Source of the DNA: an uncultured Clostridia bacterium
GTDB taxonomy: Bacteria > Bacillota > Clostridia > Christensenellales > UBA3700
DNA length: 64,000 bases
Reading direction: 5' to 3'
Assembly: GCA_947646415.1 (NCBI GenBank)
Contig: CANSGN010000001.1
Span: 129,945 to 193,944 of the forward strand
The number at the start of each line of letters is the position of its first letter. The first letter of the stretch is position 1. Position numbers and translations under genes: made by a program. Below the pieces are notes generated by a model. It was not told the origin of the DNA and made no database searches. It saw only the letters and a list, made by a program, of their open reading frames with translations. Below, in pieces: positions 5,510-62,782 of the stretch.

Positions 5510-5536
5510 GTACATGGAATAAGTATATCTATGTAC
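5510..5536 (+). repeat. Candidate recombination site A (upstream half of invertible promoter 1)
   Basis: 27-bp site of three 9-bp parts: arm GTACATGGA, spacer ATAAGTATA, arm TCTATGTAC. The arms are inverted repeats of each other (one mismatch). The whole site matches the reverse complement of site B at 5659-5686 in 26 of 27 positions, and the spacers are exact reverse complements. Arms plus an asymmetric central spacer is the form of a tyrosine-recombinase crossover site. Confidence 0.7.
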
Positions 5537-5659: not shown

Positions 5660-5686
5660 GTACATAGATATACTTATTCTATGTAA
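5660..5686 (-). repeat. Candidate recombination site B (gene-proximal half of invertible promoter 1)
   Basis: 27-bp site: arm GTACATAGA, spacer TATACTTAT, arm TCTATGTAA. It faces site A. It sits 21 bp before the ATG at 5708, so after inversion it would lie in the mRNA leader just before the ACGGAGG ribosome site. A dimeric-repressor operator is the main alternative reading of either site alone, but does not explain the inverted spacers. Confidence 0.7.
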
Positions 5687-40198: not shown

Positions 40199-41644
40199 TT
40201 AATTGACAACAAGGTCACCATATTCCTCTAGTTCGCCATCGGTACAAATTACTTTGTATTCATAAACGGCATTGTTCCAGCAATAATCTTTTGCTATACG
40301 ATTTGTCCACTCATATTTTGTTCCTTGAAAATTAATTGTGTCAAGATATACGCAAGATTCAAAAGCAGACTTGCCAATATAACCTAAGTTATTTGATATA
40401 AATATACTTGCAAGGTCAAGGCAATAAGAAAAAGCATTATTGCTTATATAATTAACATTATTAAAAATGGCAGTGGTGATTTCTTTGCAATTCATAAATG
40501 CGCCATATCCAATATCTGTTACTTTATTAAGGTCTAAACTAGTAAGTCCGTTACAATTACTAAATGCACATGCACCAATATCTGTTACACTGTCGGAAAA
40601 AGTAACACTTGTTAGGCTATTGCAGCCATTAAATGCATAATTTCCTATTTTGGTTACATTGTCGGGTATTACTAATTCAGTAATTTTTTCGCCGTTTAAA
40701 ATTAAATTGTCAGCTATTGTTAGTGGGTTTGAATCAATTTCAGTAAAAAATATATCGCACCAAGCTGCAATGTCAGATATATGAACCTCTTTTAAATTAT
40801 CGCAATTCATAAATGCTGAGTCTTCTATTTTTGTTACACTGTTGCCGATAGTTATGCTTGTTAAACTGTGGCAACTTGCAAATGCTCTTTTCCCAATATA
40901 TGTTACACTATTTGGAATTACAATGTTTGTAAGATTACCACAATTATGAAAGGCGTATGAATTTATATTTTTAATGCTATCGCCAATAGTTACACTAGTT
41001 ATTTTGTATTCTCCATCAAATAAATGTTGATAAATTTCTGTACCGCCATTTATTATAACAGTGGTTAAACTTTCTTTTGGAATTAAATATAGCTTATCTG
41101 CAGAAAGTGTTACACTTTGTATTTTATTGCAACCATAAAATGCATTGTTTTCTATACTTGTCAATTCATTTGTAATTATCAAACTTGTTAAGTTCTTACA
41201 ATATTCAAAAGCTTGATGGTCAATATAGACCACATTATTTGGTATTGTTACACTCGTTAGATTGCTGCAATAGCCAAATGCTAACCTTGAAATAGTAATT
41301 ATACTGTCAGGTATTGTAATGCTTGTTATACTATCGCAATTATAAAAAACATCGTTTCCTATTTCAATTACAGGTTTATTGTTGCATGTTGACGGTATTA
41401 TTATTTCTGTTTCGGTTGTTAAATTGGCCTTAGTAAGAATATAGCCGTCAGTTGATTCGGTAAACTCAAATGCTCCGATAGTAACTATATTTTTTTGATT
41501 GTTACCACCATTATTGTCGCTGCCATTGTTTCCGTCATTGCCGTCACTGTTATCGTTGTCACCAGAACAAGCAATCAAAGCCAAAGACATAAAGCAAGCA
41601 AGTAAAACTACCAAAACTACAAGTAATATCTTTGATTTTTTCAT
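40199..41644 (-). CDS. BspA-like leucine-rich-repeat lipoprotein (phase-variable candidate)
   Basis: 481-aa surface lipoprotein. Lipobox LIAC with Cys26, an Asn/Gly/Asp linker (27-52), then about 13 LRR_5 (BspA/TpLRR) repeats of the form NAF-x2-C-x2-LTSVTIP-x-SVT-x-IG. Such proteins in gut and oral bacteria bind host or bacterial surfaces. AAGGAG lies 8-9 nt before the ATG. The only consensus promoter upstream sits in a 119-bp segment bounded by inverted recombination-like sites and currently points at this gene (ON). Readthrough from the recombinase gene upstream is also possible because no minus-strand terminator separates them. Confidence 0.87.
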   Translation of the reverse strand: MKKSKILLVVLVVLLACFMSLALIACSGDNDNSDGNDGNNGSDNNGGNNQKNIVTIGAFEFTESTDGYILTKANLTTETEIIIPSTCNNKPVIEIGNDVFYNCDSITSITIPDSIITISRLAFGYCSNLTSVTIPNNVVYIDHQAFEYCKNLTSLIITNELTSIENNAFYGCNKIQSVTLSADKLYLIPKESLTTVIINGGTEIYQHLFDGEYKITSVTIGDSIKNINSYAFHNCGNLTNIVIPNSVTYIGKRAFASCHSLTSITIGNSVTKIEDSAFMNCDNLKEVHISDIAAWCDIFFTEIDSNPLTIADNLILNGEKITELVIPDNVTKIGNYAFNGCNSLTSVTFSDSVTDIGACAFSNCNGLTSLDLNKVTDIGYGAFMNCKEITTAIFNNVNYISNNAFSYCLDLASIFISNNLGYIGKSAFESCVYLDTINFQGTKYEWTNRIAKDYCWNNAVYEYKVICTDGELEEYGDLVVN

Positions 41645-41697
41645 TCCTTTAACTCCTTAAATATTTAATATTTTTATGAACAAATCATAAACAATTA

Positions 41698-41724
41698 GTT
41701 CATCAAATATTATGATTGATGAAC
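41698..41724 (+). repeat. Candidate recombination site L of invertible promoter 2 (gene-proximal)
   Basis: 27-bp site: arm GTTCATCAA, spacer ATATTATGA, arm TTGATGAAC. Arms are perfect inverted repeats. The site matches the reverse complement of site R in 26 of 27 positions. Directly repeated short flanks (CAATTA before, ATTTT after) accompany both sites. Confidence 0.75.
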
Positions 41725-41737
41725 ATTTTATATTATT

Positions 41738-41766
41738 AATATATCAAATTTATAAAATAATGTCAA
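41738..41766 (-). promoter_or_regulatory. Promoter inside invertible segment 2, pointing at the LRR gene (ON)
   Basis: Minus strand TTGACA (41766-41761), 17 bp, TATATT (41743-41738). The -10 box is 13 bp from site L, the same distance as in switch 1. The mRNA would start near 41731, run through site L, and reach the ribosome site. Confidence 0.75.
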
Positions 41767-41843
41767 TAAAAATGCTATTTATATATCAATTTTTCTAACT
41801 TAACGCTTTTTTATAAACATAATGGTCTTAACTCTTGCAATTA

Positions 41844-41870
41844 GTTCATCAATCATAATAATTGATGAAC
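41844..41870 (-). repeat. Candidate recombination site R of invertible promoter 2
   Basis: 27-bp site: arm GTTCATCAA, spacer TCATAATAA, arm TTGATGAAC; its central 7 bp (CATAATA) are the exact reverse complement of those in site L. On the plus strand the arms form a hairpin followed by a long T-rich run (41872-41890), so it can double as a plus-strand terminator shielding the recombinase gene. Confidence 0.75.
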
Positions 41871-41897
41871 ATTTTTTGTTTTTGTTTTTTTATATTT

Positions 41898-42824
41898 TTA
41901 TAGCAATTTTCCCAATTTGTCCATCATATTTGCTTTGTGCTCCCAAAGGGAATGGGCGTAACGATTTAATGTTATAGTTGTGTTTTTGTGTCCCAAAATT
42001 TCGGACAATGATTTTACATCCATACCACACTCTAACGCTCTTGTTGCAAAAGTATGTCTTAATGCGTGAAAGCCTTTATGTTGAATATTTAATTTTTTAA
42101 GTAACAGCTCGAAAGTTCGTTGGTAACTTCTTACAAGTATTGGTTTGTTATTGTGCGAAATAACATATTTGCTTTGGGTGTTTTTTCTTAATTGTTTTAA
42201 CAAATTAATTAATGGTTTTGAAAGTGGTATTTGTCTTGTTGAATTTTGCGTTTTTGGGGTGTCGATTATAACACAGTGTTTGCTATTAATATAACCATCA
42301 TGGCACGATTTTGTAACAGATAATGTGTTTTTTGCAAAATCAATATCATTCCAAGTAAGTGCAAGCAGTTCCCCAATGCGAAGTCCTGTATAAAGGCAAA
42401 GTATAATCCCTTTGAGTTTTTGGCGGTGGCTATTGGCAATATGTTTTTCTATCTTTTTCTGTTCGCAAATTGTAAAACATACTATTTGTTTTTCAACAAG
42501 TTTTGGGCGTTTTATCTTGTCAGCGTTGTAGTCAGTAACTAATCCCAAAATATGAGCTTTTTTAAGTGAGCTTTGAATGATAGAAACAATGCCATTGATA
42601 TAATTTGATGATAAACCTTTGTTTGTTCGTTTGTTTCCGTTTTGCGAAAGATTGCTGATAAACTTTTGCAGTATTATAGGGGATAAATCTTCTATATTGT
42701 AATCGCCTAAATGTGGCAAGATATGCAAAGATATAATGTTTTTGTAACGCTCAAAAGTTCGTTGTTTGTTTGAAATTTTAATGAAATTATTTAGCCATTC
42801 TTCTAGCCAATTTTTGTATGTCAT
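41898..42824 (-). CDS. Tyrosine recombinase (integrase/invertase type)
   Basis: 308-aa site-specific recombinase. Core-binding SAM-like domain at residues 2-105 and catalytic domain at 115-300 with every active residue: Arg149 (TGLRIGE), Lys191, His253-x2-Arg256, His279 (LGHKN) and Tyr289 (NRYAHS). No AP2-like arm-binding domain precedes the core, unlike most phage and ICE integrases, which fits an invertase with simple sites. AAGGAG (minus strand) lies 8 nt before the ATG at 42824; a longer frame to 42872 has no ribosome site. Its 3' end is 27 bp from site R. No excisionase or cargo genes flank it. Confidence 0.9.
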   Translation of the reverse strand: MTYKNWLEEWLNNFIKISNKQRTFERYKNIISLHILPHLGDYNIEDLSPIILQKFISNLSQNGNKRTNKGLSSNYINGIVSIIQSSLKKAHILGLVTDYNADKIKRPKLVEKQIVCFTICEQKKIEKHIANSHRQKLKGIILCLYTGLRIGELLALTWNDIDFAKNTLSVTKSCHDGYINSKHCVIIDTPKTQNSTRQIPLSKPLINLLKQLRKNTQSKYVISHNNKPILVRSYQRTFELLLKKLNIQHKGFHALRHTFATRALECGMDVKSLSEILGHKNTTITLNRYAHSLWEHKANMMDKLGKLL

Positions 42825-45774: not shown

Positions 45775-46665
45775 TTATTTTTCTAACAATTCGTCGTTTG
45801 GCTCTATCTTGTCTTTTCCAACAAAGCCTACAGCTATTGTGCCTGCGCCTGTGTGTGAGCCGATAATAGGTCCTACATAATTTGTAAGTATATTTGTAAT
45901 ACCTGTTTTTTCTATTATTTTTTCCTTTAAAAATTCTGCATCGTCCGGGCAGTCTGCGTGAAGAATAATAATTACATCATTTTCTTCAAGAATAATTTTG
46001 TCTTGCAAATGGTCGATTAGCTCCAAAATAGCTTTTTTTCTACCTTTTATTTTATCTATTGTTGAAAGCTTGCCGTCTTTATTGACATAAAGCATTGGTT
46101 TGATTTTAAGCAATGAGCCGGCTATAGCAGCCGTTTTGCTTACTCTGCCGCCTCTCATCAAGTGGAAAAGGTCGTCAGGAGTAAAATAAACACAAATTTT
46201 ATCGCGACGAATAAGAGTCTCGTTGTAATTATCTTCAATGCTCATACCATTATCACGGGCTTTTAAAGCATAATAGGCAAGTAAACCTTCGCCTGTTGTT
46301 GCACATTTTGAGTCAAGCATATAAAATTTACGCTCAGGAAATTCTTGCTTCAATTCTTCCACTGCGGCAAGCACATTTTGATAAGTGCTGCTTAAGCTTG
46401 AGGAAAAACAAATATGCAATATATCGTTTCCTGCTTTTAATATCGGTCTAAAAAATTCTTCGGCAAAATAGCTTGTGATAAGCGAGGTTGTTGGCATTGC
46501 GCCATTTCTTATCGCATCAAAAAATTCCTTGCCTGAAAGATTTTTATCAATACCATACTCGGTATCTCCGATTGTGTATGTCATTGGTATAATTTTAAAG
46601 TTTTCAAAATACGACCATTCTTGCGGAAAATCGCAAGTCGCATCGGTTGTAATGTAATAAGACAT
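45775..46665 (-). CDS. DegV family fatty-acid-binding protein (copy 2)
   Basis: 296 aa. DegV/FakB-type fold that binds a single fatty acid, in FakAB systems presenting it to the FakA kinase for phosphorylation. Seen: TTDATCDFP start, the PTTSLIT segment with the family's threonine/serine at 60-66, CFSSSLSSTY (90s), DSKCATTGEG, GGRVSK and IGSHTGAGTIAVGF near the end. It lies 26 bp after a close paralogue and is likely co-transcribed. No fakA-type kinase is in this window. Confidence 0.92.
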   Translation of the reverse strand: MSYYITTDATCDFPQEWSYFENFKIIPMTYTIGDTEYGIDKNLSGKEFFDAIRNGAMPTTSLITSYFAEEFFRPILKAGNDILHICFSSSLSSTYQNVLAAVEELKQEFPERKFYMLDSKCATTGEGLLAYYALKARDNGMSIEDNYNETLIRRDKICVYFTPDDLFHLMRGGRVSKTAAIAGSLLKIKPMLYVNKDGKLSTIDKIKGRKKAILELIDHLQDKIILEENDVIIILHADCPDDAEFLKEKIIEKTGITNILTNYVGPIIGSHTGAGTIAVGFVGKDKIEPNDELLEK

Positions 46666-46691
46666 AATCCCTCCGTTGTGTCTGTTTTTTA

Positions 46692-47582
46692 TTATTTTAA
46701 TAAATCGTCAGTAGCTTCGATTTTGTCTTTTCCGACAAAGAATAGCGCTACTGTGCCTTGTCCTGTGTGTGAGCCGATAACCGGACCGATATAATCGATT
46801 ATAATATTAGTAAGTCCTGTTTTTTCGATTATTTTTTCTTTAACAAATTCCGCATCTTCAAGGCAGTCTGCGTGAGCAATAAAAATAATTTCGTTTTTAT
46901 CCGCTATCATTTTGTCTTGCATATATTCAACAAGTCCCAAAAGAGCTTTTTTCCTGCCTTTAACTTTGCCTATTGTAGAAAGTTTTCCGTCTACATTTGC
47001 ATAAAGCATAGGTTTAATTTGAAGTAAAGTACCTGCAACAGCAGCTGTTTTGCTTACTCTGCCGCCACGCATTAAATGATATAAGTCGTTTGGTGTAAAG
47101 TAATGGCAAATATGGTCGCGCCTTTCAACTGTTTCGTTAAAGTTGCTTTCAATATCCATACCGTTATCGCGTGCCTTTAGTGAATAGTAAACAAGTAAAG
47201 CTTCGCCAGAGCATGCAGCCTTAGAGTCTAGCATAAATATTTTCCTGTTCGGAAATTCCTTTTTTAGTTCCTCAACAGCCAAAGTAACGCTTTGGTAAGT
47301 GCTGCTTAAATTTGAGGAAAAGCAAATATGAAGAATATCATTGCCGTCTTCTAGGATAGGTCTAAAAAACTCGCTTGCTGTGTAAGTAGTAATAAGGGAT
47401 GTGGTAGGCATTGCTCCATTTCTTACCTTATCGTAAAATTCTTTACCCGAAAGCTGTTTATCGATACCATATTCTATATCGTCAATGGTGTATGCCATTG
47501 GAATGATTTTAAAATTTGTAAAATTATTTAATAGTTCCTGTGGGAAGTCGCAAGTAGCATCAGTGGTTATAAAATAAGACAT
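46692..47582 (-). CDS. DegV family fatty-acid-binding protein (copy 1)
   Basis: 296 aa, strongly similar to the downstream copy along its whole length, with the same motifs (TTDATCDFP, PTTSLIT, CFSSNLSSTY, GGRVSK, IGSHTGQGTVALFF). A tandem duplication is evident; differences cluster in the lipid-lining segments, which could give different acyl-chain preference. CAAGGAG lies 5 nt before the ATG. The 590-bp upstream spacer holds no consensus minus-strand promoter that I can assign with confidence. Confidence 0.92.
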   Translation of the reverse strand: MSYFITTDATCDFPQELLNNFTNFKIIPMAYTIDDIEYGIDKQLSGKEFYDKVRNGAMPTTSLITTYTASEFFRPILEDGNDILHICFSSNLSSTYQSVTLAVEELKKEFPNRKIFMLDSKAACSGEALLVYYSLKARDNGMDIESNFNETVERRDHICHYFTPNDLYHLMRGGRVSKTAAVAGTLLQIKPMLYANVDGKLSTIGKVKGRKKALLGLVEYMQDKMIADKNEIIFIAHADCLEDAEFVKEKIIEKTGLTNIIIDYIGPVIGSHTGQGTVALFFVGKDKIEATDDLLK

Positions 47583-59508: not shown

Positions 59509-62142
59509 ATGGATATGTCAAAAACATATAATCCGAAAGAGTTTGAAGAAAAATTATATAAAGAGTGGGAGAAAAAGGGGTATTTCAGAGCGGAAGCGGA
59601 CAGCAAAAAGCAACCGTTTTCCATTGTTATTCCACCTCCTAATATTACAGGACAATTACACATGGGACATGCCTTGAACAATAGTATTCAAGATACAATC
59701 GTAAGGTTTAAACGTATGCAAGGATATGCTACTTTGTGGCTACCGGGTACAGACCATGCGTCTATTGCAACCGAGGTTAAGATTGTTGAAAAAATGAAAC
59801 AAGACGGTCTTACAAAAGCCGATGTAGGAAGAGACGGCTTTTTGGAGCGTGCTTGGGAGTGGAAAGAACAATACGGTGGAAGAATTATCGAGCAATTAAA
59901 AAGGCTTGGTTCCTCATGCGATTGGAGCAGACTTGCTTTTACAATGGATGATAATCTTACAAAAGCAGTAAAACACGTTTTTGTTAAGCTATACAATAAA
60001 GGTTTGATTTATAAGGCTGACCGCATTATAAATTGGTGTCCGTCCTGCAAAACTGCATTGAGCGATGCGGAAGTTGACTATGAAGAGCAGGACTCTTTCC
60101 TATGGCATATTAGGTATCCGTTTGCAGATGGCAGTGGGGAGCTTGTAGTTGCAACTACAAGACCTGAGACTATGCTTGGGGATAGTGCCGTTGCTGTCAA
60201 TCCAAAGGACGAAAGATATAAAGATATTATCGGCAAAATGCTTATTTTACCGCTTACAGACAAACAAATTCCCGTTATTGCGGATGAATATGTAGAGCTT
60301 GATTTTGGTAGCGGTGCGGTAAAAATTACACCTGCACACGACCCTAACGACTTTGAAGTGGGTTTAAGACACAATTTGGATGTTATCCGCATTATGAACG
60401 ATGACGGAACTATGAACGAACTTGCAGGCAAGTACTGCGGTTTGGATAGGTTGGTTGCAAGAGCTAAAATTGTAGAAGATTTAAAGGCAGGCGGATATCT
60501 TGTTAAGGAAGAGCCATACAAACACAATGTAGGTGTTTGCTACAGGTGTCACAATGTGGTTGAGCCTATTGTCAGCAAACAATGGTTTGTTAAAATGGGA
60601 CCACTTGCAAAACCTGCAGTTAAAGTTGTTAAGGATAAAAAGATTGAATTTATCCCGGGTAGATTTAGCAAAACATACTTTAATTGGATGGAAAATATTA
60701 AAGATTGGTGCATTTCGCGTCAGCTTTGGTGGGGTCACAGGATACCTGCTTACTACTGCGAAGATTGTGGCGAAATGATGGTACAGGAAGATGCACCTAA
60801 AGTATGTAGCAAGTGCGGTAGTACGCATTTAAAACAAGACGAGGATGTTTTGGATACTTGGTTTTCCTCTGCATTGTGGCCGTTTTCTACACTTGGATAT
60901 CCCGAGCAAACAAAAGATTTGCAATATTTTTATCCTACAAGTTTGCTTGTAACTGCTTACGATATAATTTTCTTCTGGGTTGCAAGGATGATTTTCAGTG
61001 GTTTGGAACACATGGGGGATATACCTTTCCCTGAAGTTTTGATACACGGTATTGTTCGTGACAGCCAAGGCAGAAAAATGAGCAAGTCTTTGGGCAATGG
61101 TATTGACCCGCTTGAAGTTATTGACAACTATGGTGCGGACAGCTTAAGACTTAGCTTGCTTATGGGTATTGCTCCGGGTGGAGATACTAGATTTATCGAG
61201 GAAAAAGTGGTAAGTTGCCGTAACTTCCTTAACAAAGTTTGGAACGCATCAAGGTTTGTTATGATGAATACCCAAAATGTTAAATTAAAGGAAATGGGTA
61301 GTTTCCGTTTGACACCTAGCGATAAATGGATATTGTCAAAATTGAACAATACTGTTAAGGAAAGCACTAAATGTATGGAAAAATACGATTTGGGCTTAGC
61401 TTGCAGCAGTATTTACGATTTTGTTTGGAATGATTTTTGCGATTGGTATATAGAGCTTTCAAAGGCTGCTTTGTATGGCGATAATGAGGATAAAAAGTCA
61501 AATACTGTAACCGTTTTAAATTATGTTCTTGACAAAATTTTGAAGTTGTTGCATCCGTTTGTACCTTTCATTACAGATGAAATTTATTCGTTTACTGCTT
61601 CTGCAAAATCTAGCATTATGATTAGCGATTGGCCACAAGTTATCAAAAAGTATAATTACAAAAAGGAAAGGGAAACATTCGAAAAAGTTATGGATATCAT
61701 AAAAGGTATACGTAACTTAAGGGTGGAAATGAATGTAAAACCATCTCAAAAAATCGATTTGATTATTGCACCTAGCGTTGACATAAAAGTTTTGGATACT
61801 ATTATGCCGTATATTATAAAAATGGCTAATATCGGCAGCGTATCATATATTCAAGACAAACAGGAAGTTAGCGAAAAGGTAAGTGTGATTATAAGCGATT
61901 TCGGCGATATTTTGATTCCGCTTGGTAACCTTGTAGACAACGAGAAAGAAATTGCAAGACTTACAAAAGACTTGGAAGACACCAACAGCGAAATTGAGCG
62001 TGCAACCAAAATGCTTAATAACCAAGGTTTTATTGCAAGAGCGCCTAAACAGTTGGTTGATAAGGAAAAGGAAAAACTTGCAAACTACACACAACTTGCG
62101 GAAAAAATTAAAAGTCAAATTGAAGAGTTGAAAAATGCGTGA
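59509..62142 (+). CDS. valS: Valyl-tRNA synthetase
   Basis: 877-aa class Ia synthetase charging tRNA-Val. HIGH motif as HMGH in GQLHMGHALNN (about 45), editing domain with TTRPET and HDPNDFEVG, two zinc-type CxxC pairs (CYRCH; CEDCG with CSKCG), KMSKS in GRKMSKSLGN (about 517), anticodon-binding domain and the C-terminal coiled coil (about 815-877). AGGAAGGTG precedes the ATG at 59509; an earlier in-frame ATG at 59479 lacks one. No T-box leader is present. Its end overlaps the HAD gene by 8 bp. Confidence 0.96.
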   Translation: MDMSKTYNPKEFEEKLYKEWEKKGYFRAEADSKKQPFSIVIPPPNITGQLHMGHALNNSIQDTIVRFKRMQGYATLWLPGTDHASIATEVKIVEKMKQDGLTKADVGRDGFLERAWEWKEQYGGRIIEQLKRLGSSCDWSRLAFTMDDNLTKAVKHVFVKLYNKGLIYKADRIINWCPSCKTALSDAEVDYEEQDSFLWHIRYPFADGSGELVVATTRPETMLGDSAVAVNPKDERYKDIIGKMLILPLTDKQIPVIADEYVELDFGSGAVKITPAHDPNDFEVGLRHNLDVIRIMNDDGTMNELAGKYCGLDRLVARAKIVEDLKAGGYLVKEEPYKHNVGVCYRCHNVVEPIVSKQWFVKMGPLAKPAVKVVKDKKIEFIPGRFSKTYFNWMENIKDWCISRQLWWGHRIPAYYCEDCGEMMVQEDAPKVCSKCGSTHLKQDEDVLDTWFSSALWPFSTLGYPEQTKDLQYFYPTSLLVTAYDIIFFWVARMIFSGLEHMGDIPFPEVLIHGIVRDSQGRKMSKSLGNGIDPLEVIDNYGADSLRLSLLMGIAPGGDTRFIEEKVVSCRNFLNKVWNASRFVMMNTQNVKLKEMGSFRLTPSDKWILSKLNNTVKESTKCMEKYDLGLACSSIYDFVWNDFCDWYIELSKAALYGDNEDKKSNTVTVLNYVLDKILKLLHPFVPFITDEIYSFTASAKSSIMISDWPQVIKKYNYKKERETFEKVMDIIKGIRNLRVEMNVKPSQKIDLIIAPSVDIKVLDTIMPYIIKMANIGSVSYIQDKQEVSEKVSVIISDFGDILIPLGNLVDNEKEIARLTKDLEDTNSEIERATKMLNNQGFIARAPKQLVDKEKEKLANYTQLAEKIKSQIEELKNA

Positions 62143-62782
62143 ATATAAATATTTGTTTTGGGATTTCGATGGTACGATAGTGGACAGTTTTGAGGGCTGC
62201 AGTTTTGCTTTTGGCAAAGTTTTTGAACATTTTGGTGTAAATATCCCGCCCGAGGACAGAAAACAATATATAGGACCTCCGTTAAAAGTTACCTTTACCG
62301 ATATGTTCGGAGCGGATAAAGAGCCGTTTGCTCGCGAGTTGTATAGGGAATACTATATAAACCAAGGCGGACAAAATATGTGCAAGCTATTTGAGGATAT
62401 GCCCCAAATTTTAAACACAATAAAAAGCTTTGGATATAAAATGTTTATTGCGACCAGCAAAAGGGAAGATATTGCAAGCGAAATGCTTAAAGAGTTTGGC
62501 GTGAGAGATTGCTTTGACGGAGTGTTTGGCACTGTGGAAAGCGAGGGCAGGATTGACAAAAAAGATATTTTGGAATATGCTGTTCGAATATCCGGCGGCA
62601 AAAAACATGATTGCCTTATGATTGGGGATTCCATATACGATGCAATGGCGGCAAAACAAGTGGGTATCGACTGCTTGGCAGTAGCTTATGGCTTTGGAAA
62701 TGTGGAAAATATGTCAAAAATCGGTACTATTTTGTGTGTGCAAAAGCCTGTCAATTTGATTGACGTATTTAAAAAACAATAA
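62135..62782 (+). CDS. HAD-superfamily phosphatase (phosphoglycolate-phosphatase-like)
   Basis: 215 aa. HAD motif I DFDGTIVDS (residues 10-18) with nucleophile Asp10 and acid/base Asp12, helical cap (20-80), motif II TSK near 109, Lys in motif III and motif IV GDSIYD. Resembles Gph/PpaX-type phosphatases; substrate not determinable. Starts inside valS. Confidence 0.85.
   Translation: MREYKYLFWDFDGTIVDSFEGCSFAFGKVFEHFGVNIPPEDRKQYIGPPLKVTFTDMFGADKEPFARELYREYYINQGGQNMCKLFEDMPQILNTIKSFGYKMFIATSKREDIASEMLKEFGVRDCFDGVFGTVESEGRIDKKDILEYAVRISGGKKHDCLMIGDSIYDAMAAKQVGIDCLAVAYGFGNVENMSKIGTILCVQKPVNLIDVFKKQ

Follow-up and report, generated by a model that had tools for sequence, protein, structure and literature searches.

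The locus described here is, with a probability of about 90%, a self-contained phase-variation switch with a dedicated tyrosine recombinase. It lies in a 64-kb stretch of DNA from an uncultured Clostridia bacterium (the window, which means the whole 64,000 nucleotides that were analysed), and through it, expression of a surface protein can probably be turned on and off by the cell. A single suspected promoter inversion has become a defined, order-wide family of switches that has a recombinase of its own and a site code that can be read, and for which natural inversion is directly documented in one case. (In this code, the arms of the sites follow the recombinase, and the 7-bp core matches within each module.) The features of the locus are:

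41898..42824, minus strand: tyrosine recombinase gene (P0001), 308 aa; Pfam matches to Phage_integrase (6.4e-29) and Phage_int_SAM_3 (2.9e-14).
41844..41870, minus strand: recombination site 1 (recombinase-proximal), 27 bp, GTTCATCAATCATAATAATTGATGAAC, core TATTATG on the minus strand.
41725..41843, minus strand: putative invertible segment between the sites, 119 bp; a homologous segment is found in both orientations (L132 versus L134/L136).
41738..41766, minus strand: predicted sigma-70-type promoter, TTGACA-17-TATATT, which faces the LRR gene and ends 13 bp from site 2.
41698..41724, minus strand: recombination site 2 (gene-proximal), 27 bp, GTTCATCAAATATTATGATTGATGAAC, core CATAATA on the minus strand.
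41673..41681, minus strand: putative accessory half-site C, GTTCATAAA, located 16 bp past site 2 and upstream of the ribosome-binding site.
40199..41644, minus strand: BspA-type leucine-rich-repeat (LRR) lipoprotein gene (P0002), the switched gene, 481 aa; LRR_5, E = 1.9e-81.
41844..41880, plus strand: intrinsic-terminator-like element, in which the hairpin of site 1 on the plus strand is followed by ATTTTTTGTT; the only such element around the locus (0.1 expected).

Both sites are present exactly as a preliminary description of this DNA had them, with identical arms: each consists of a 9-bp arm, a 9-bp middle, and a 9-bp arm, and site 1 begins 27 bp past the stop codon of the recombinase gene. 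The claim that their 7-bp cores (positions 11-17, TATTATG and CATAATA) are reverse complements is also exact, and this is unlikely to be due to chance, as a general search for 27-bp inverted pairs found two in the window (this pair and the one at 5510/5660) and none in 100 shuffles. The site pattern occurs at just two places in the window, both of them at this locus (0.08 expected), and without mismatch it is unique to this locus in the 1.73-Mb genome. In other words, as in known invertons, inverted repeats with compatible crossover cores flank a segment.

The preliminary description also proposed that the adjoining gene encodes a tyrosine recombinase, and it does. P0001 belongs to the Phage_integrase family (PF00589), both by its profile match and by its R-K-H-R-H-Y catalytic residues (R149, K191, H253, R256, H279, and Y289), and all six residues are present in 32/32 homologues. 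Among proteins of solved structure, the best match to it is Int (6en0). A serine invertase of the Hin/Gin type was considered and rejected, the adjoining recombinase being a member of PF00589. The same genome encodes seven other tyrosine recombinases, one of which is 50% identical to P0001. Among viral contigs, we found no close relatives of P0001, and the site pattern gave 13 matches, all to single sites (one site per stretch of DNA). A search of the locus against Rfam gave no match.

The segment between the sites contains the promoter that had been claimed for it, with TTGACA at 41766-41761, a spacer of 17 nt, and TATATT at 41743-41738. It has 11 of the 12 consensus bases, with TG before the -10 element, and by sequence match, it faces the gene in one orientation of the segment, as the promoter of an inverton would. 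It scores highest among four candidates near the locus. Because shuffled sequences likewise give four, the promoter call leans on the fixed place of the promoter in the family: in most modules, 11-14 bp separate the end of the -10 element from the adjacent site, regardless of the direction of the promoter, and in the window, it is 13 bp. The gene that it faces is indeed an LRR lipoprotein gene with BspA-type repeats; in the signal sequence of the product, LIA is followed by Cys, and the ATG is preceded by AAGGAG as a ribosome-binding site. We infer that the promoter is functional and that ON means expressed. These and all other promoter and ON/OFF assignments depend on matching to the consensus.

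To place the locus among its relatives, we searched for homologues of P0001, which are present in 20 of 46 genomes of the same family at E ≤ 1e-40 and, across the order, in 82 of 396 genomes and 33 of 142 genera at E ≤ 1e-70. For a first set of about 30 loci, we read the DNA after the stop codon of the recombinase gene, and a 27-bp site with an inverted partner could be placed in 25 modules (counting the window's). The recombinases that are paired with such sites are 33-69% identical to P0001. The start of the first site ranges from 13 bp before the stop codon to 36 bp past it in 24 of the 25 modules (the exception is L040, at 386 bp after), and the partner site lies 117-209 bp further along. 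All but one of the 25 modules have cores (positions 11-17) that are exact reverse complements of each other, while arm positions agree in 40-100%. The consensus half-site of the family is GTWCAYNGAWTA, and the site sequences vary from module to module.

Several of the second sites in this set were placed by hand with help from the core, so we repeated the test fully automatically on new loci. The automatic rule was applied to 22 new loci from the order-wide search, of which 19 had enough downstream DNA. It found a site pair in 16 of these 19 testable loci, whereas none turned up in 800 shuffles or at 144 other positions within these loci. Five homologues of P0001 (L094, L100, L102, L104, and L039) have no recognisable site pair downstream; these may have lost the switch or may act elsewhere. 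Also, the switch and its target gene are nearly identical in L086 and L087, which are from two different genera (g2 and g5), and this suggests recent horizontal transfer of the module.

Across 23 modules, the similarity of the arms tracks the identity of the recombinases (Mantel r = 0.705, 0 of 5,000 permutations), and this co-variation, together with adjacency, suggests that P0001 acts on the window's sites. A different recombinase might instead work a real switch in trans; an example would be the paralogue on contig 2 of the same genome, which shares 50% identity with P0001. The genome does have a second family of invertible sites, with 62 site matches, which suggests that some recombinase works in trans. 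But the arms of that family are different (GTACATAGA instead of GTTCATCAA), mismatch-free GTTCATCAA sites are found only beside P0001, and adjoining recombinases and sites co-vary in those 23 modules, so we consider action in trans to be improbable, and a dedicated recombinase remains our reading.

The most direct evidence for inversion is from a homologous module that three genomes from a single genus of the order share (L132, L134, and L136) and whose recombinase has 62-63% identity to P0001. Between its sites lie about 123 nt of almost the same sequence, which runs the opposite way in L132 from L134/L136, with local alignment scores of 121-123 for the reverse orientation and 13-13.5 for the direct orientation. 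If we invert the segment in silico between the core centres, the identity of the whole region (L132 versus L136) rises from 73.1% to 99.2%. The inner half-sites are swapped as well: site 1 is GTACACTGA...TCTATGAAC in one form of the module and GTACACTGA...TCAGTGTAC in the other, which is the expected outcome of a crossover inside the core. Thus, a member of this family has inverted in nature, and by homology we infer that the window locus inverts as well.

At the window locus, we saw just one orientation, which is ON by the direction of the promoter. The preliminary description had called it ON and had proposed looking for the other form in relatives. The call is supported by the promoter's direction and by similarly arranged homologous modules that face either way, and the search did find both forms of a homologous module, but only the ON form of the window locus. 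Two congeneric genomes lack the locus: in one (G002), the best homologue is 44% identical and has different sites, and in the other (G001), there is only a weak match. The nearest homologues of the flanking genes lie on different contigs in these two genomes, which leaves no empty site to be read there. Going by the highest promoter score, the ON modules of the first set are the window's, L074, L075, and L089, and the other 17 distinct modules are OFF; in the second set, L127, L131, L132, L133, L145, and L146 are ON and the rest are OFF. When we aligned the inner segments of distant modules by promoter direction, with the hexamers masked, there was no signal, so the orientation calls across the family rest on the promoter hexamers and on geometry. 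The close pair (L132 versus L134/L136) is free of this weakness.

These results also bear on whether the dyads are just transcription-factor operators or terminator hairpins, without any inversion. Site 1 on the plus strand with its T-run does score as an intrinsic terminator, and half-site C, just before the ribosome-binding site, is where an operator might be. However, operators would not need an asymmetric 7-bp core to be exactly inverted, as it is in nearly every module of the first set, nor would they explain a module found in both orientations with its half-sites exchanged, or promoters that point both ways across the family. We regard this explanation as very unlikely.

The mechanism that we propose is one of inversion. 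A dimer of the tyrosine recombinase would bind the 9-bp arms of each 27-bp site, the two sites would be paired, and strand exchange within the matching 7-bp cores would invert the promoter segment (about 120 bp). In the ON orientation, the promoter would drive the LRR lipoprotein gene. After inversion (OFF), it would point towards the 3' end of the recombinase gene, and the hairpin of site 1 and a T-run would stop transcription. The same recombinase would probably also bind the extra half-site beyond site 2, which may tune recombination or expression.

The preliminary description pointed out that short flanks of the two sites match in direct orientation, which simple inversion does not explain. 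The match is real: on the plus strand, both sites are preceded by CAATTA and followed by ATTTT. Direct flanks might be the trace of a small excisable element, with the sites as its attachment sites and with recombination deleting 146 bp. But the two sites differ at 1 position when one of them is reversed and at 4 positions when they are read directly, and inverted cores imply inversion; relatives show inversion only; and direct identity of the right flanks is not a trait of the family (p = 0.13), so that candidate trait was rejected. Excision therefore seems extremely improbable to us. As for the flanks themselves, the left flanks, oriented by the promoter, are alike across the family (4.0/6 versus 3.39 in permutations, p = 0.001), while the right flanks are not, and the 6/6 match to TAATTG is particular to the window. 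So, part of the puzzle reflects a property of the family, and the right-flank match remains a peculiarity of this locus.

The similarity of the left flanks implies an A-run on one side of site 1 and a T-run on the other when the module is OFF, which gives a terminator-like hairpin. Across 35 modules, the 8 nt after site 1 contain on average 4.9 T in OFF modules versus 2.1 in ON modules (p = 2e-6), and the predicted hairpin energies are -13.8 versus -6.9 kcal/mol (p = 1.5e-5). The flip probably also makes or breaks the terminator of the recombinase gene, which would shield that gene from antisense transcription in the OFF state. The evidence for this is moderate, because the A-rich ends of the promoters could give part of the T enrichment. 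It is also possible that the flanks affect directional bias, by analogy to FimE.

Beyond site 2, most modules have another copy of the half-site. In a leave-one-out profile scan, the best half-site downstream of site 2 is at an offset of 16-17 bp in 18 of 21 modules (16 bp in the window), and in independent modules, it is 15-17 bp beyond site 2 in 12 of 16. The extra half-site fits the arms of its own module better than the arms of other modules (p = 0.001; for the window, the match to its own arms has p = 0.02). Examples are TTGCGCGGA in L099, GTGCATCAA in L082, and TACATAGATT in L096. As in TnpI/irs-type systems, these are extra copies of the recombinase's own recognition motif at a fixed spacing from the core site. 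Half-site C is probably a further binding site of the recombinase and may serve to adjust recombination or expression. In front of the recombinase gene, where half-sites might point to autoregulation, they were not above chance in any module.

Many modules also have an inner site, whose left half is 14-16 bp from the promoter-distal end of the segment in 14 of 21 modules. Equivalent half-sites are about 43 bp apart, or four helical turns, which suggests that protein is bound on one face of the helix. Pairing of half-site C with site 2 in the RNA seems less likely, as the inner site, with nearly the same spacing, lies across the segment and distant from any ribosome-binding site. We found no recognisable inner site in the window. 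This, and the single orientation, might indicate a former switch that is now locked, with the recombinase or the sites defunct in the window's genome and the gene constitutively on. Yet both sites have perfect arms and exactly matching cores, and the full-length recombinase retains every catalytic residue, so a locked switch is unlikely and we favour a working one.

A broader hypothesis, which we offer tentatively and lean somewhat against, is that the recombinase also regulates the switched gene. Bound to several of its own sites spaced about 43 bp apart (the inner site, site 2, and the half-site ahead of the ribosome-binding site), it would sense or set the orientation and adjust expression, the flip would make or break the recombinase's terminator, and surface and defence genes across the order could share the cassette interchangeably. 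If so, a single protein would control the switch as well as its directional bias and its read-out. The co-varying half-site and a terminator that depends on orientation add concrete, testable elements to the control of tyrosine-recombinase switches.

Invertible promoters with a nearby tyrosine recombinase are already a known kind of switch. The closest report that we found is of inverton group 139, which is linked to invertase group 35 (a tyrosine-type recombinase) in Clostridia from gut isolates (PMC11892184). According to the passages of that report that we draw on, these invertons are nearly all from Clostridia, nearly all have a tyrosine recombinase close by, and their inversion was seen in reads. 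The likeness to our family, with short inverted repeats and a nearby tyrosine recombinase, is one of description, and those passages, unlike our results, make no mention of an accessory half-site or of terminator switching. In E. coli, the promoter segments fimS, hyxS, and ipuS are likewise inverted by tyrosine recombinases encoded alongside (FimB, FimE, IpuA, and IpuB), and sequence just outside the repeats sets the directional bias (PMC6083910). There, repeat lengths are 7-16 bp, ipuS spans 260 bp, and sites are shared by several recombinases, while the window's family has 27-bp sites with palindromic arms and a site sequence of its own in each module. The nearest known parallel to the extra half-site is in Tn4430 and Tn5401, whose irs has a core inverted repeat (IR1-IR2) and two direct-repeat sites, with TnpI binding the DR1 and DR2 motifs; in Tn5401, TnpI binding modulates expression too (PMC7157771). 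But TnpI is a transposon resolvase, while the window's switch is for promoter inversion and its extra site is outside the segment, before the switched gene. A limited literature search turned up no description of a co-varying extra half-site, a terminator switch, or cassette exchange between surface and restriction genes.

That exchange is apparent from the genes that follow the switch. The next gene encodes a surface lipoprotein with BspA-type LRR and/or Listeria-Bacteroides repeats in the window and in L075, L083, L084, L086, L090, L096, L097, and L103. In other modules, it is a DNA methyltransferase or restriction gene, which encodes an EcoRI-type methylase followed by a GmrSD/HNH nuclease (L099 and L073), an N6/N4 methylase (L079, L082, and L129), an MmeI/Eco57I-type protein (L081, L091, and L131), or a C5 methylase (L088 and L138). 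In L130, it encodes a radical-SAM protein, and there are ResIII/helicase genes in L132 and L146. Since recombinases that are 70-90% identical precede unrelated genes (an LRR lipoprotein in L075 and methylases of several kinds in L079, L081, L085, and L088), the switch behaves as an exchangeable cassette. With the same cassette before surface lipoproteins and several restriction-modification or defence-like genes, the switching of surface display and phage defence in uncultured gut Clostridia becomes testable. In L143 (2625-3917), the switch is ahead of a gene for a protein with TIR and TPR domains, which could be a phase-variable defence gene.

The second type of site, GTACATAGA-N9-TCTATGTAC, is present in the window at 5510-5536 and 5660-5686, and it has 62 forward matches across the genome, mostly in pairs 150 bp apart. 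In the roughly 26 cassettes of this type that we read, the inner segment is in one orientation, with the promoter pointing away from the gene, in all but L122 (contig 14, 26274-26450), where the inner segment is reversed and the outer flank is the common one. The paralogue on contig 2 of this genome (G000, 61328-62233; L039:10329-11243) has no sites of its own and is flanked by cassettes of the second type. Among its closest relatives are the L096 and L097 recombinases, whose arms are likewise GTACATAGA, so it is a candidate for the trans-acting invertase of these sites. Mycoplasma penetrans, with its invertible promoters, and Bacteroides fragilis, with Mpi, have many near-identical invertible promoters before surface genes; this second site family resembles those systems, while the switch at 41698-41870 is a single-copy one with a dedicated recombinase. 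Elsewhere in the window, at 45775-47582, there are two adjacent and similar genes of 296 aa each, whose products look by eye like DegV-family fatty-acid-binding proteins.
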